This document shows positions 23,660 through 29,901 of a stretch of DNA of 64,000 nucleotides, one piece after another. The notes below the pieces were generated by a model. The model was not told where the DNA came from, did no database searches, and worked only from the letters and a program-made list of their open reading frames with translations. Source of the stretch: Malonomonas rubra (GTDB lineage: Bacteria > Desulfobacterota > Desulfuromonadia > Desulfuromonadales > Geopsychrobacteraceae); contig NZ_QKAP01000013.1 of NCBI RefSeq assembly GCF_003247215.1, positions 18,785-82,784 on the forward strand, given 5' to 3'. The translations under genes and the position numbers were made by a program. How positions within the stretch are numbered: position 1 is the first letter of the stretch; each line of letters starts with the position of its first letter.

Positions 23660-23689
23660 GTCAACATTACAGCTAATGTTGGTTACGAC

Positions 23690-23777
23690 AGCCACTTCCC
23701 TACGCCGGTATTAGCCGGATCAGGTTCCAAGGGTCGCTCGAATTTCGAGCTCTCAGTAACGATGACTCCCCTAGGGC
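23690..23777 (-). promoter_or_regulatory. TPP riboswitch (THI element)
   Basis: Minus strand GGGGAGTCATCGTTACTGAGAG...ACCCTTGGAACCTGATCCGGCTAATACCGGCGTAGGGAAG matches the THI-box consensus. Confidence 0.96.
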
Positions 23778-23933
23778 TAATGTGAAAGTTGAAACTAGCA
23801 GTCTGACGAGTTGAAAGTCAATATCTTTGCAACATTTTCTAGTGTTCTGCGATTGATCTTTTCGACGACTTTGCTTAGGATGGCGAACTCTTCTTGGTTG
23901 CTTGAAGAGTTCTTGTAAAGAAAGGAAGAAGAG

Positions 23934-24254
23934 ATGTCGATATCTGAACGTTACCGGCAAATTTGGGAGCAGATCGATACCGAATCGGATCGTCTGTATG
24001 AGATTTTGCCCGAGGAAATGGCAAAGGCGTTGCGCCAGGTTGATCGGGCGGTGGAAGAAATGCAGGAATTTGCCGAGACGGTCGGTGAAATCCCGCAGTT
24101 TCAGCTGGAGGCAAAACTGTCTCCGGTGCTGTTGAAAGGGCATGAGTGTCTCGATCGGGCGCGGGTGATGTTGGAGGCCGCCGGTCATGAAAAGGAGGCC
24201 GCCGGTATCTGGGAACTGGAACAGTTGATCTATCGGTTGTTGAATGATCTGTAA
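23934..24254 (+). CDS. Small helical hypothetical protein (106 aa)
   Basis: Ribosome binding site-like AAAGGAAGAAGAG upstream; terminator downstream (AGGGCGTCCAAAGTGACGCCCTTTTT); codon pattern consistent with coding. Confidence 0.7.
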   Translation: MSISERYRQIWEQIDTESDRLYEILPEEMAKALRQVDRAVEEMQEFAETVGEIPQFQLEAKLSPVLLKGHECLDRARVMLEAAGHEKEAAGIWELEQLIYRLLNDL

Positions 24255-24393
24255 CAGATCATGACATAGCGTGTGCAGGGCGTCCAAAGTGACGCCCTTT
24301 TTGCTGGCATACACCTTGCTTTACTGGTAGCGGGTTTTGTGAGTTGTTATTTTTGCGTTGCTTGGAGGGTAACGCCTGTCTGCACTGGAGCAT

Positions 24394-25284
24394 TTGGATA
24401 TTATGCATAAGAAACTGGAAAAAATATTTTACGAAGTCCGTGAGCCGGTTCTAGATTGGGACAATATTGGTGGCTTCGCAGAGGTCAAAGAGATCCTCAA
24501 GGAGATGGTCTGCCTGCCGTTGCAGAAGCCGGAAATGATCAAGCAGCATCAACTCGGTATCCCGGCCGGTGTGATGATGTGGGGACCGCTTGGGGTCGGT
24601 ATCACCATGCTGGCGGAAGCCTGCGCCAAGGAAGCCGGCGCTTCGTTCGTCTATATCAGCGGTCAGGAGATGCTCGGAAAAGGTGAAGAGCTGGTTGAGG
24701 CCTTCGATACAGCGATTCACGAGGCACCTTGTGTGCTGTTTATTTCCGATTGTGAATGGCTGGCACCACGGGTCGGTTGCAATTATGAATGGGATCCGGG
24801 CAACCTGCGCGGGATCCCGCCGACATTCGCCACCAAGGAACTGAACCGGTTATTTATCGAACAGATTGATCGGATCAATAAAGTGGAAAACGTGATGCTG
24901 GTCGGTTCCTGTTACCGTATCGATACGGTCGATCAGGCGATCATCAAAGAAAAGAAGCGCTTCAACCGGAAGGTGTTCGTGCATCCACCACGGGTTGTCG
25001 ACCGTCGCGGTATGCTCGATATTTACATGGACCAGATGCCGAATCTGGCTGACGATGTCGACCGGGACAAGCTGGCCGAGCTGACCGAAGGCTATGTCGG
25101 CTGGGACGCAGAGAGCCTCTGTAAGCGGGCGACGGTCAATGCCATCAAGGAAGATGCGCCGCAGGTGACGATGGCTCATTTTCTCAAGTCGCTAAAAGAG
25201 GTCCGCTACTGGCTGACCCCCGATATGACACGGGTTTATCACGAGATTTACGAAAACGATTGCCCGCATCATTACGCTTTTTAG
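24394..25284 (+). CDS. AAA-family pseudo-ATPase (Cdc48/FtsH-like AAA fold with degenerate catalytic motifs); start TTG 24394 or ATG 24403
   Basis: AAA scaffold WDNIGGFAEVKEILKEMVCLPLQKPEMI...ISGQEMLGKGEE...LAELTEGYVGWDAESLCKRA; Walker A reads GPLGVGIT, Walker B LFISDCEW, sensor-1 region GSCYR. Confidence 0.85.
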   Translation: MDIMHKKLEKIFYEVREPVLDWDNIGGFAEVKEILKEMVCLPLQKPEMIKQHQLGIPAGVMMWGPLGVGITMLAEACAKEAGASFVYISGQEMLGKGEELVEAFDTAIHEAPCVLFISDCEWLAPRVGCNYEWDPGNLRGIPPTFATKELNRLFIEQIDRINKVENVMLVGSCYRIDTVDQAIIKEKKRFNRKVFVHPPRVVDRRGMLDIYMDQMPNLADDVDRDKLAELTEGYVGWDAESLCKRATVNAIKEDAPQVTMAHFLKSLKEVRYWLTPDMTRVYHEIYENDCPHHYAF

Positions 25285-25296
25285 GTCCAGATTGAC

Positions 25297-25707
25297 GTGA
25301 TGGATCTCTACGCAAAACTCGCCGAAATCCATGGCCACTATTGCCCCATGAGCACCCTTGGACTGCGGTTGGGGCTGGAGGCGGCACGGTTAGTAACAGT
25401 GACCAGTCAGGCAGATTGGAACTTCTGTTACCTGGCACGCACCTGTGCTGCCGACGGAATTGCCATGGCCCTAGGGGAAACGGAACGGTCGATTGAGTTC
25501 TCCGTTGATCCGCAGGGACAGCATTTGCTCGTTTGCCGCTCGGTAGATGGCAAAGAGTTGTCACTTGCCCTCTCTGCTGAGGCACTGCAGTTGGCCAAGG
25601 ATTACCACGGGTTTGATGACGACGGTAAAAGCCGACAACTTCACCTGTTAAGAACAATTGCCAGCGAGCGTCTGATCGACATGTCAGGACCGACCGAAAA
25701 TGTCTGA
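25297..25707 (+). CDS. FmdE-like (formylmethanofuran dehydrogenase subunit E family) protein
   Basis: N-terminal IHGHYCPMSTLGLRLGLEAARL motif and CAADGI motif of FmdE-type proteins. Confidence 0.75.
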   Translation: MMDLYAKLAEIHGHYCPMSTLGLRLGLEAARLVTVTSQADWNFCYLARTCAADGIAMALGETERSIEFSVDPQGQHLLVCRSVDGKELSLALSAEALQLAKDYHGFDDDGKSRQLHLLRTIASERLIDMSGPTENV

Positions 25708-26656
25708 TTCCATATTTATCCAGGTGTTCAATGTAATTCAGGACGAAATCCTGAAGATGTGGTGGTTCTTTCTGCTGTCGATCCTGCTGGTGGGAATCAT
25801 CAAAGGCTACAAAATTGATCTGCGGATTCGTGATTCGATCAACCGGGCCGGTTTTTGGGGGATTCCGATTGCCGTGGCTGTCGGAATGGTTTCTCCGCTG
25901 TGCGCTTGTGGCATTCTGCCGGTGGTGATCTCTCTGGCGATGATGGGAACTCCATTGGCGCCGCTGATGGCGCTGCTGGTTACTTCGCCAGTGATGGGAC
26001 CGGATGCCCTGTTACTGACTTATCGCGGACTGGGTGCTGATTGGGCGCTGATGAAATTCGTCGGTGCCGGGATTCTCGGTCTGACCTCCGGGATGTTGGT
26101 GCTGTGGCTGCAGAGAAGCGGTTATCTCGCCAGCGATATGGTGCGTTTGCAGCCGGTCTATAAGGATGATGGTACCTTGGCGACGGCTGCCGAGATCGGC
26201 GCCGCGCATGGCATCAAGGTCAAGCGGATGCAAGTGATACCGCGTGACAGCAGGGTACGGTTTATTTTCGATCGCACCGTCGATGCCGGTCTGTTTGTTG
26301 GGAAGTACCTGCTTTTGGCGATTATCCTTGAAGCGATTATCGTTACGCTGGTGCCCATTTCCTGGATTACCTTTCTGGTCGGTCAACATAATTTTCAATC
26401 GTTATTCGCCGCAGCGTTTATAGGCCTGCCATTGCCGACCAATCAGATCCCGATTATCCCCATTATGGCAGGGCTGCTGGAACGAGGGATCGACACTGGT
26501 GCGGGGCTGACTTTGTTGCTGGCCGGCCCGGTCACCAGCCTGCCAGCGATGCTGGCGCTCTGGGCAATGTTTCAGAAGCGCTTGGTGCTGGTTTTTGTTG
26601 CGCACGCCTTATCAGTCTCCATTCTACTCGGCTGGATTCTGCAGTCGTTTCTTTAG
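25700..26656 (+). CDS. Permease (ArsP/DUF318-type)
   Basis: Multi-TM; SPLCACGILPVVISLAMMGTPLAPLMALLVTSPVMGPDALLLTYRGLG; second half FIGLPLPTNQIPIIPIMAGLLERGIDTGAGLTLLLAGPVTSLPAMLAL; overlaps the upstream ORF by 8 nt. Confidence 0.8.
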   Translation: MSDSIFIQVFNVIQDEILKMWWFFLLSILLVGIIKGYKIDLRIRDSINRAGFWGIPIAVAVGMVSPLCACGILPVVISLAMMGTPLAPLMALLVTSPVMGPDALLLTYRGLGADWALMKFVGAGILGLTSGMLVLWLQRSGYLASDMVRLQPVYKDDGTLATAAEIGAAHGIKVKRMQVIPRDSRVRFIFDRTVDAGLFVGKYLLLAIILEAIIVTLVPISWITFLVGQHNFQSLFAAAFIGLPLPTNQIPIIPIMAGLLERGIDTGAGLTLLLAGPVTSLPAMLALWAMFQKRLVLVFVAHALSVSILLGWILQSFL

Positions 26657-26661
26657 GGCAC

Positions 26662-27504
26662 ATGATGCGCTGGTTTATTTTTGTCTTCATGTTCATCGCC
26701 CTGTCTGCTTGTGCCCAATCACGTAAGATTTCACGTCAGAGCTATTCCGATCTGGTCATTGCTGAAGATACGCTATGGAGCGGTTCGATCCTGATCGACG
26801 GCCAGGTTGAGGTGCTGCACAACGCCAAGTTAACGATTGCACCAGGAACGGACATCGCTTTTTCCTATCGGGATGAAAACCGTGATGGCCTGGGGGACGG
26901 GACTCTGATCGTTAAAGGGGAACTGGTGGCGGTCGGCAGCAAGCAGCAGCCGATCCGTTTTCGGAGCGCTAAAGAGAACCCTCAGCCGGGAGATTGGCTG
27001 GAAATAGCGGTCGATTTCTCCAAGGAGGTGCATCTTCGTTATTGTGAGATCCGTGATTCCGCCTATACGTTACATGCCCACTTTACCAACGGTCTGGTTG
27101 AAGACTGTCATATTCATCACAATATTGATGGTTGTCGCATCGGTCAGGCGACAATGGTTCTGCAACACAACCTAGTCGAGCATAATACCGGCAAGGGGAT
27201 TAATTTCCGGAACTCGCGGGTCAAGGTGCTCAATAACCTGATTCGCAACAATACGGCAGGGATTTTCCTGTTCGAAAACGATCAGCCCTTTGAGATCAGC
27301 GCCAACAATATACTCGATAATCAGTATCAGCTGCGGTTGGGGGATTTTTATGTGGCGGATGTCGATCTGCACGGTAATTGGTGGGGAACGGCGGACGAGG
27401 TTGCAATCAGAAAAGGAATTTACGATCGGCAGGTCGATCCGGAAATTGGGGTTGTCACGATTGATCCTTCCCCCACGCCGGTAAATAATGCCGGTCCGCG
27501 TTAG
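26662..27504 (+). CDS. Lipoprotein with right-handed beta-helix (NosD/CASH-like) domain
   Basis: Lipobox LSAC; repeats LVEDCHIHHNIDGCRIG, LQHNLVEHNTGKGINFRNSRVKVLNNLIRNNTAGIFLFEND; HGNWWGT. Confidence 0.8.
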   Translation: MMRWFIFVFMFIALSACAQSRKISRQSYSDLVIAEDTLWSGSILIDGQVEVLHNAKLTIAPGTDIAFSYRDENRDGLGDGTLIVKGELVAVGSKQQPIRFRSAKENPQPGDWLEIAVDFSKEVHLRYCEIRDSAYTLHAHFTNGLVEDCHIHHNIDGCRIGQATMVLQHNLVEHNTGKGINFRNSRVKVLNNLIRNNTAGIFLFENDQPFEISANNILDNQYQLRLGDFYVADVDLHGNWWGTADEVAIRKGIYDRQVDPEIGVVTIDPSPTPVNNAGPR

Positions 27505-27601
27505 ATCTGGCGGTTAAATTGCAATGAATTGAGATTCTCGAGCAATTTGTTTGTTTCGTTACGAAGGTTTGTCGTTGTTTTTGACAAGACGCGGGTAGGT
27601 T

Positions 27602-28960
27602 TTGACGGTTTTTTGCCACTATGAGGCTGGTTTGAAAGTTTTTCGGCCAATTATCCTTTTGGTTATGATGTTTCTGGCTAATCCTGTGTTGGCTGCCGAG
27701 CAGAGACATCTACTGATTGATAAAAATCAGCGCTGGCAGGGGACGGTCGAGCTTGATCGGCCGGTTCTTGTGGCGGTTGACGCCCGGCTGGAAATTGCTC
27801 CCGGAGCGCGGATCAATGTTACGGCAAAGAAGGTCGTGCTTAAAGTTGAAGGCGAACTGGAGGCTCTCGGATCGGTTGCTCAACCAATCCGCTTTGAAGC
27901 GCCTCACGGTTGGTTCGGGATAGAGCTCCAGACTACAGAAAATAGCCGTTTTGAGCATGTGCAAATCGAAGGGGCGGAATCTGGAATTGCTGCATCGCAA
28001 AGCCGGTTCGAGGTAAGGAATAGTCTTTTTAGTAGTTGTAAAACGGCAATCAAACTAGATCGTCAATCTGAATCGGAGATTGCGCAGAACGAGTTTGTCG
28101 ATAATCAGACCGGCATCGATATCGGAACCCGTTCGCAGGGAGTGGTGAAGGAAAATTTATTTAAAGGAAATGCGGTGGCGGTTGTAGCCAGTCATAACAG
28201 TACCGGTATCGTCCGCGAAAATCGTTTTATTGCCAATCAGCAGGGAGTTTATGTACAACATCTTTTTCCTGGGACGATGAATGAAAACAGTTTCGAGCAG
28301 AATAAGACAGCGGTTATCTGCGACCAGACCATGGCCAGCCCGCTGATTACCGACAATCGTTTTGTCGGTAATGAAAAGGGGATTGTTAATCTGCTGGCGT
28401 CCAAACCGCAGGTGCGAAATAATTTGTTTCACGATAATGATATCGCCCTCGTGAACAATCAACTTGGCAGCCCAGTGGTTGAGAAGAATCTGTTTGTTGG
28501 TAACCGATTGGCGATCAAAAGTGAGCGGCGTTCCGCACCGCAGATAGAGTACAATCGGTTTCTGGAAAATGATTTAGCACTGTTCTGTGACTATCTTTCC
28601 TATCCGACGGTTAAACAGAATAATTTTATTACGAACAACATGGCGGTTAAGCTGGGTGACCATCAGAGTGCCGATATGGAGAAGCAGGGAGCTGCCGATA
28701 AACAGACGGAAAAAATACTTGCTGCTTCCGGGCGTCAAGGCAAACCAGCTGTTTTTCACCCTGCCTCTGGAATCGTTGATGTAAGTTTAAACTGGTGGGA
28801 ACCTGATGTGGAAGAAGAGATCGAGAAGTTCTTTTTCGACCGTTCTCAGGAGAAATGGGTGCTTGATGACGCGACCGGTAAGCGTTATCTTCGGGATGAA
28901 ATATCTTTTCGGCCAAGGTTGACGAAACCGGTTACCGATGCCGGAAGAAAATATCAATAG
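27602..28960 (+). CDS. Exported right-handed beta-helix (NosD-like) protein; probable start near 27632
   Basis: Signal peptide ILLVMMFLANPVLAA; about 22-aa repeats (VRENRFIANQQGVYV, MNENSFEQNKTAVICDQ, ITDNRFVGNEKGIVN, VRNNLFHDNDIALVN...); SLNWWEP. Confidence 0.82.
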   Translation: MTVFCHYEAGLKVFRPIILLVMMFLANPVLAAEQRHLLIDKNQRWQGTVELDRPVLVAVDARLEIAPGARINVTAKKVVLKVEGELEALGSVAQPIRFEAPHGWFGIELQTTENSRFEHVQIEGAESGIAASQSRFEVRNSLFSSCKTAIKLDRQSESEIAQNEFVDNQTGIDIGTRSQGVVKENLFKGNAVAVVASHNSTGIVRENRFIANQQGVYVQHLFPGTMNENSFEQNKTAVICDQTMASPLITDNRFVGNEKGIVNLLASKPQVRNNLFHDNDIALVNNQLGSPVVEKNLFVGNRLAIKSERRSAPQIEYNRFLENDLALFCDYLSYPTVKQNNFITNNMAVKLGDHQSADMEKQGAADKQTEKILAASGRQGKPAVFHPASGIVDVSLNWWEPDVEEEIEKFFFDRSQEKWVLDDATGKRYLRDEISFRPRLTKPVTDAGRKYQ

Positions 28961-28971
28961 GTGAGGACTGG

Positions 28972-29283
28972 ATGGAAAAGAAAAAAGAAACGGAAGTGAA
29001 ACTGGAAATACAGATAGATGACGATGTCGCCGCAGGCCAATACATTAATATGGTGGTTATTAATCATAATGACAGCGAGTTTGTGCTTGATTGTATCTTT
29101 TTACAACCGCAAGCGCTGAAGGCAAAGGTGCGCTCTCGGTTGATTACCTCGCCGCGCCACGCCAAGCGACTGTTGTTGGCGCTGCAGAACAATGTTGTCA
29201 GTTATGAAAAGAAATATGGTGTCATTAACCTTGATGAAGGGAAACAGGCACCGGTTGAAAAATCTGACTCCCCGGTACATTAG
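28972..29283 (+). CDS. DUF3467-like protein
   Basis: GQYINMVVINHNDSEFVLDCIFLQPQALKAKVRSRLITSPRHAKRLLLALQNNVVSYEKKYG pattern. Confidence 0.75.
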   Translation: MEKKKETEVKLEIQIDDDVAAGQYINMVVINHNDSEFVLDCIFLQPQALKAKVRSRLITSPRHAKRLLLALQNNVVSYEKKYGVINLDEGKQAPVEKSDSPVH

Positions 29284-29286
29284 CTG

Positions 29287-29901
29287 TTGAGGAAGGATGA
29301 AATGATGGCCTGGATCAAAAAGAAGATTGTGTTTCTGTTTCTGTTGTTTCTCACCACTTTGCCGGTAACTGGATTCGCCTGTGTCGGAAAGACTCTGGTT
29401 GTCGGTTCGACCGGAGGAGTGCAGCAGGAACTGTTAGCGAATATGCTCGCTCAACTGATCACTGAGCGGACCGGAACTTCAGTCAAATTGGTAAATCATG
29501 ACTCTAGCCAGAGTGCACACCAAGCGTTGATGAAAGACGATCTGGATATTTATGTCGAGTATACCGGAGTCGGGCAAATTGAAATATTGGGTGGTGAGCC
29601 GATTAACGACCCTGAACTGCTGTATGAAGCGGTAAAGAAACGTTACAATGAAGAGCTGAATATTGTCTGGCTCAAGCCGCTTGGTTTTGAAGCCAATATT
29701 GTGGATCTTACTTTACCAGCACAGGCGGTTCCGATAGCGAGGAAGGATACACTGAAAAAATTTCCTGCTCTGGCGCGTTTGATCAACAAATTGAGTGGAA
29801 AAATTAATGCACGGACAATCGCCCAGCTTGAAGAGCAGACTACTTCACAGGGAGTAAAAGAGGTTGCTCGGGGGTTTTTAAAGCAGAATCGGCTGATCTG
29901 A
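29287..29901 (+). CDS. Short OpuAC/ProX-like substrate-binding protein, apparently missing one lobe
   Basis: KTLVVGSTGGVQQELLANMLAQLITERTG...DLDIYVEYTGVGQIEIL...IVWLKPLGFE, then directly VPIARKDTLKKFPALARLINKLSGKINARTIAQL. Confidence 0.8.
   Translation: MRKDEMMAWIKKKIVFLFLLFLTTLPVTGFACVGKTLVVGSTGGVQQELLANMLAQLITERTGTSVKLVNHDSSQSAHQALMKDDLDIYVEYTGVGQIEILGGEPINDPELLYEAVKKRYNEELNIVWLKPLGFEANIVDLTLPAQAVPIARKDTLKKFPALARLINKLSGKINARTIAQLEEQTTSQGVKEVARGFLKQNRLI

Follow-up and report, generated by a model that had tools for sequence, protein, structure and literature searches.

What does an AAA protein with a degenerate active site do at the head of a run of genes for a metal-site protein, a permease and several exported proteins? 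The question is raised by a 64,000-nucleotide stretch of the Malonomonas rubra genome (order Desulfuromonadales; contig NZ_QKAP01000013.1, positions 18,785 to 82,784; here the window, its genome being G000), in which a preliminary description had proposed seven genes at 24394-29901 as an undescribed envelope or metal-handling system. The pseudo-AAA protein, FmdE, ArsP1, OpuAC, the peptidase-U32-type pair U32a and U32b, and the second permease ArsP2 form a conserved, co-inherited system, linked by synteny and by their joint presence across genomes.

A conserved and co-inherited gene set

Seven co-directional, tightly packed open reading frames (ORFs) stand at 24394-29901 of the forward strand, and their coordinates and Pfam matches agree with the families and the gene overlap first described:

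24277..24298, strand +, terminator-like strong hairpin, the upstream boundary of the unit
24394..25284, strand +, pseudo-AAA protein, p97/CDC48-D2-like and catalytically degenerate, the hub of the system (Pfam AAA and AAA_lid_3, motifs, AlphaFold2)
25297..25707, strand +, FmdE-like protein with metal ligands H12, H14, C16 and C50 intact and without a zinc finger (Pfam FmdE)
25700..26656, strand +, ArsP1, an ArsP_1/DUF318-type permease with an invariant CxCG (Pfam ArsP_1)
26662..27504, strand +, first exported NosD-like beta-helix protein (Pfam Beta_helix/NosD)
27602..28960, strand +, second exported NosD-like beta-helix protein (Pfam Beta_helix/NosD)
28972..29283, strand +, DUF3467 protein, a resident neighbour inside the cluster and not specific to the system (Pfam DUF3467)
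29287..29901, strand +, exported one-lobe OpuAC-type binding protein with an invariant mature N-terminal CVGK (Pfam OpuAC)

The Pfam E-values are 6e-17 for AAA with AAA_lid_3, 8e-9 for FmdE, 1e-39 (136.5 bits) for ArsP_1, 1e-22 for DUF3467 and 4e-24 for OpuAC, with Beta_helix/NosD matches in both beta-helix proteins. The FmdE and ArsP genes overlap by 8 nt (25700-25707), and the remaining gaps are 12, 5, 97, 11 and 3 nt. Since its homologues start MH(K/R)KL, the AAA protein probably begins at the ATG at 24403 rather than at 24394.

Of the order's 118 genomes compared, 43 have the pseudo-AAA gene, and the other parts follow it closely. U32b is found in all 43 of these and in 5 of the 75 genomes lacking pseudo-AAA, OpuAC in 42 and 4, ArsP1 (62-72% identical) in 41 and one, ArsP2, a paralogue at another site of the genome, in 41 and 5, and FmdE in 37 and none; U32a occurs in 9 of 9 genomes tested with pseudo-AAA and 1 of 9 without. 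Fisher p-values for the co-occurrence of ArsP1, OpuAC, FmdE and ArsP2 with pseudo-AAA run from 1e-23 to 1e-28 (1e-24 to 1e-28 for AAA, FmdE, ArsP1 and OpuAC), values that ignore phylogeny. Losses are concordant inside single genera, namely g1 (G080 and G103), g9 (G001 and G035) and g33 (G050), so the pattern reflects repeated independent events. The exceptions are mostly genomes that are incomplete or contaminated; G020 is a genuine one. The pseudo-AAA gene also travels with beta-helix lipoprotein genes.

Around the pseudo-AAA gene, about 19 kb retrieved from each of 20 genomes of the order has the order AAA-FmdE-ArsP-beta-helix in nearly all, with OpuAC further along. In a wider survey of 80 non-redundant loci, 50 of the 67 loci with enough flank, in several lineages, have FmdE no more than 1.5 kb downstream of AAA, and 49 of 62 likewise have ArsP. 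Because the gene order is retained in dozens of genomes, the gene set is far beyond chance. Homologues scattered without synteny, which the preliminary description had named as the outcome that would speak against a unit, are not what this comparison found, and its view of the genes as a conserved and undescribed unit holds over the 118 genomes and 80 loci: the collections searched contained neither a paper on this gene set nor a named system that has it, and no paper joining any two of ArsP, FmdE, NosD and DUF3467, or FmdE with peptidase U32.

The seven genes are not the full system. Relatives carry a cluster of about 16 kb, which opens with AAA, FmdE, ArsP, an FG-GAP/UnbV protein, a carboxypeptidase-regulatory lipoprotein and a beta-helix–PQQ propeller fusion, and continues with a spermine-synthase-like membrane protein, further lipoprotein and beta-helix pairs, DUF3467, a beta-helix protein, OpuAC, DUF362 and a NapGH-like polyferredoxin. 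The system is a unit of gain and loss, and the window carries a reduced copy, without the propeller on the first beta-helix protein and without the spermine-synthase-like, FG-GAP and lipoprotein genes. A frameshift interrupts ArsP1 in a congeneric genome, G063 (L031:9786-10708); the system may be eroding in the window's genus, an error in that metagenome-assembled genome (MAG) being the alternative for the frameshift.

The remaining partners lie elsewhere. The U32 pair is directly 5' of pseudo-AAA in nine deep-branching loci of several lineages (L088, L091, L139-L142, L146, L150 and L155), except that in L139 U32b alone precedes it. In Desulfuromonadales the two genes are at sites unlinked to pseudo-AAA, yet in the same genomes, and in the window's own genome they and ArsP2 are found outside the window:

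G000:C90:6369-7307, U32a
G000:C110:11574-12329, U32b
G000:C110:2062-2997, ArsP2

The pseudo-AAA protein and its partners

The pseudo-AAA protein has a single AAA domain, an AAA core plus AAA_lid_3 of the p97-D2 type according to Pfam, Foldseek (E about 1e-20) and an AlphaFold2 model (predicted local distance difference test score, pLDDT, 91; predicted template modelling score, pTM, 0.89) that superposes on p97 D2. In profile comparison it matches CDC48, PAN and VCP-like D2 domains best, the last being its best solved relatives, and the likeness to p97, CDC48 and VAT takes in the fold, the second region of homology and the lid. It differs from them in the single domain and in an active site that, as had been noted at first sight, is degenerate. 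Walker A reads GPLGVGIT in place of GPPGxGKT (homologue consensus GPLGxGIT), Walker B reads FISDCEWL in place of hhhhDE (homologue pattern (F/Y)(I/V)(S/T)D), and sensor 1 reads GSCYRID, its Asn position being Tyr or Phe in homologues. The Walker A Lys (to Ile), the Walker B Asp-Glu (to Ser-Asp) and the sensor-1 Asn (to Tyr) are all replaced, and the features of an active AAA+ ATPase are absent.

These replacements are themselves fixed. Of 64 pseudo-AAA loci in public genomes, 63 have Ile at the P-loop Lys position and one has Met; in three Actinomycetota proteins the next position is a Lys. Two features are absent from p97, CDC48 and VAT: a new conserved aromatic segment following Walker B, and a conserved C-terminal DC(P/S)H(H/Y)YxF, which is an invariant DCPHHYxF in 22 aligned sequences (53-94% identical, about 90 of 296 columns invariant) and DCSHYYTF in the three Actinomycetota. 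Ratios of non-synonymous to synonymous substitution (dN/dS) against congeners are 0.016-0.034, comparable with ThiG and lower than those of all the other genes of the unit that allowed the calculation. Judged by its sequence, this is a repurposed protein and not a decaying gene. Its closest named relatives are MAGs labelled uncultured Desulfuromonadales and Geopsychrobacter, and the hosts of the 64 loci include MAGs of Nitrospirota, Actinomycetota, Rokuibacteriota and Desantisbacteria. The tree is patchy, with one clade of Nitrospirota and two of Actinomycetota, a pattern compatible with horizontal transfer of the gene and short of proof.

Both U32 partners carry the four-cysteine [4Fe-4S] motifs published for UbiU and UbiV (PMC6747719), with the UbiU-type pattern CX6CX12-14CX~35C in 18 of 18 U32a sequences and the UbiV-type pattern CXnCX8-16CX3C in nearly all U32b sequences.

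The metal motif of FmdE and the permease CACG, which the preliminary description had picked out, are likewise intact. The FmdE-like protein has the FHGHxC motif and second Cys of its family (PF02663), with H12, H14 and C16 of HGHxC...C nearly invariant and C50 invariant. Such His/His/Cys/Cys ligands bind Zn or Ni/Zn in the solved relatives 2gvi and 2glz (PMC2954224), and the same ligand set is retained here; fmd and fwd genes were not seen in the annotated loci. ArsP1 is a full-length ArsP_1 protein with a CxC, as in the ArsP/DUF318 permeases, and both C68 and C70 are invariant. Its nearest named families are SO_0444 (Cu/Zn efflux) and SaoE; it differs from them and from ArsP in scoring below every NCBIfam cut-off (99 and 91 bits against 300 and 325), in the absence of arsenic operon genes from the annotated loci, and in having two paralogues that are co-inherited with pseudo-AAA.

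Among the exported proteins, OpuAC had been called a truncated, half-sized binding protein, and it does consist of lobe I and a C-terminal return, lacking about 75 residues of the second lobe compared with solved relatives, so that it is no two-lobe Venus flytrap; its predicted mature N terminus carries an invariant Cys. Orthologues of the first beta-helix protein have about 600 residues, with a C-terminal propeller of PQQ/BamB type. The beta-helix proteins, together with the NapGH-like polyferredoxin of relatives, recall the periplasmic maturation proteins of NosD/NosR type in nos clusters, from which the present set differs in that the window proteins reach 22-64 bits against a cut-off of 300 for curated NosD models and that no NosZ, NosF, NosY or NosL was found in the annotated loci. 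Since the defining sequence features were looked for and not found, we do not claim the labels active AAA ATPase, two-lobe OpuAC, or curated ArsP, NosD or UbiU.

In other lineages further transport genes lie near pseudo-AAA: a YedE-family putative selenium transporter and a PhnD-like binding protein in L152, L088, L091, L137 and L158, the YedE-type Se/S transporter (TIGR04112) at L152:10091-11161 scoring 309 bits against a cut-off of 200. A gene that reads as a cysteine synthase also occurs near pseudo-AAA in other lineages. In L083-L087, from another class of the phylum, a divergent multihaem cytochrome ORF (9-11 CxxCH) lies a few kb upstream; multihaem cytochromes are rejected as members, being found only near some loci of that class and on the opposite strand.

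Residents of the locus and rejected members

DUF3467, which the preliminary description had counted in the system, drops out of it. It is retained directly beside the small ORF at 23934-24254 in four relatives lacking pseudo-AAA, and is a resident of the site for that reason. Congeneric and confamilial genomes of this kind have ThiEHGF, then the small ORF, then the adjoining DUF3467; in G080 the last two are separated by 16 nt, and at this point the window has 4.7 kb of AAA, FmdE, ArsP and beta-helix genes. A partial state is seen in G111, which keeps the small ORF, the second beta-helix gene, DUF3467 and OpuAC and has lost AAA, FmdE, ArsP and the first beta-helix gene. The AlphaFold2 model of DUF3467 is weak (pLDDT 74) and no solved relative was found for it; its clade has an invariant C-terminal His, after a variable tail, in 18 of 18 aligned sequences.

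The small ORF is also rejected, being present in 103 of 118 genomes and set off from the seven-gene unit by the hairpin at 24277-24298. It usually adjoins thiF and encodes a conserved protein that matches nothing in NCBIfam and, above cut-off, nothing in Pfam; a thiamin pyrophosphate (TPP) riboswitch above gathering score lies at 23680-23782 on the reverse strand, upstream of the divergent thiamin operon ThiFSGHE. Further candidates were set aside: the tetrapyrrole methylase gene beside U32a, found in many genomes without pseudo-AAA; the UbiE-like methyltransferase gene beside ArsP2, found in 105 of 118 genomes; and DUF362 with the NapGH-like polyferredoxin as core members, since this is a separable module, also present in some genomes without pseudo-AAA and found in the window's genome on another contig (L203:9-2308, G000:C97). 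A role in anti-phage defence is rejected too, the sole match being a generic AAA similarity to IetA.

A possible anaerobic modification and export module

The reading that we prefer, at a probability of about 0.4, is of an O2-independent modification module, a U32 pair on a pseudo-AAA scaffold, that supplies a permease with a Cys motif and binding proteins outside the cytoplasm. The pseudo-AAA protein would no longer hydrolyse ATP, would retain its subunit interface and, as a ring, would scaffold or chaperone the U32 pair. The U32 proteins, by analogy with UbiU-UbiV, may then hydroxylate a small molecule, probably thiol- or metal-binding, without O2; FmdE would hold the product or a metal, the ArsP permease or permeases would carry the product across the inner membrane, and the one-lobe OpuAC and the beta-helix and propeller lipoproteins would receive and retain it in the periplasm or on the surface. 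The gene linkage is observed; what the substrate is, which way it is moved, that it is hydroxylated and that pseudo-AAA serves as a scaffold are all inferred. The analogy has its basis in a longer UbiU-like protein (about 320 residues) and a shorter UbiV-like one (about 255), adjacent in deep branches as in the UbiU-UbiV(-UbiT) system, with the differences that the partners here are a dead AAA protein, FmdE and ArsP and that the hosts found are mostly Desulfuromonadales.

Several observations weigh against this reading, among them the neglect of phylogeny in the p-values above. The complete genome G020 has U32a, U32b and ArsP2 without pseudo-AAA, and four further genomes, less complete or contaminated, have U32b without it. 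UbiU scores are 82-90 bits, far under the equivalog cut-off of 440, and the annotated loci yielded no UbiT, so that nothing here implies a quinone substrate. The export part is not universal, as both FmdE and ArsP are missing from the neighbourhood of the AAA gene in Nitrospirota and Actinomycetota loci.

The wider formulation, in which these genes make up a new class of anaerobic biosynthesis-and-export system, occurring across several phyla among metal-reducing and subsurface bacteria, is tentative, and we would sooner doubt it than assert it. There an ATP-independent p97-like ring would be the assembly platform for a UbiU/UbiV-type hydroxylase pair, a Cys-motif permease would export the product, and beta-helix, propeller and half-binding proteins would handle it.

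Among the alternatives, export of or tolerance to a metal, metalloid or thiol complex, the model of the preliminary description, survives best, and is unlikely, a little more so than the wider formulation. The permease would export, FmdE and pseudo-AAA would sense or deliver, and the exported proteins would sequester, as the invariant CxCG and its Cu/Zn-efflux and SaoE kinship, the four retained FmdE Zn ligands, ArsP2 in 41 of the 43 genomes, and the YedE-type and cysteine-synthase-like genes of some lineages suggest. However, no ars, mer, cop or czc regulators or enzymes were seen in the annotated loci, the permease falls below every curated cut-off, and the U32 pair, to which the linkage is strongest, belongs to no metal-resistance family and stands beside the AAA gene in nine loci mostly without FmdE or ArsP.

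U32 proteins are known O2-independent hydroxylases whose families include rRNA and tRNA hydroxylases (PMC11574389), and the pair with pseudo-AAA might modify RNA or another macromolecule, as RlhA and TrhP do, the envelope genes being separate and sharing only location and regulation. This fits the siting of the Desulfuromonadales U32 genes away from the envelope genes and the U32a-U32b-AAA trio in Actinomycetota without FmdE, ArsP or beta-helix genes. It is distinctly less probable than metal export, given that all parts follow one phyletic pattern within the order, that U32 and envelope genes form one run in L140, L088 and L091, and that the Cys spacing matches UbiU/UbiV.

Assembly of an extracellular structure is more doubtful still: a surface layer of beta-helix, FG-GAP, PQQ-propeller and carboxypeptidase-regulatory lipoproteins, with the cytoplasmic genes as assembly factors, would suit the up to about nine exported beta-rich proteins of the full cluster, but the window, G063 and G047 retain the cytoplasmic core having lost most lipoproteins, and lipoproteins are absent near the AAA gene in Actinomycetota. 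Plain conservation of neighbourhood with no functional link, of which the small ORF at 23934 is one instance and DUF3467 another, both conserved in place without belonging, is highly improbable for the system itself, because the phyletic pattern separates these two from it and genes at unlinked loci are gained and lost together.

O2-independent oxygenases of the U32 type are a class just coming into view, for which few substrates are known. The UbiUV-like pair described here co-segregates with metal-site proteins, permeases and a dead AAA protein, both among the Desulfuromonadales, which are anaerobic and reduce metals, and outside that order. The gene set, its hosts, one of which is the isolate Geothermobacter hydrogeniphilus HR-1, and the genomes with natural co-loss are a concrete route to a new reaction. 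The pseudo-AAA protein, its active site retyped and fixed and under stronger constraint than its neighbours, is a test case for the repurposing of an ATPase fold.

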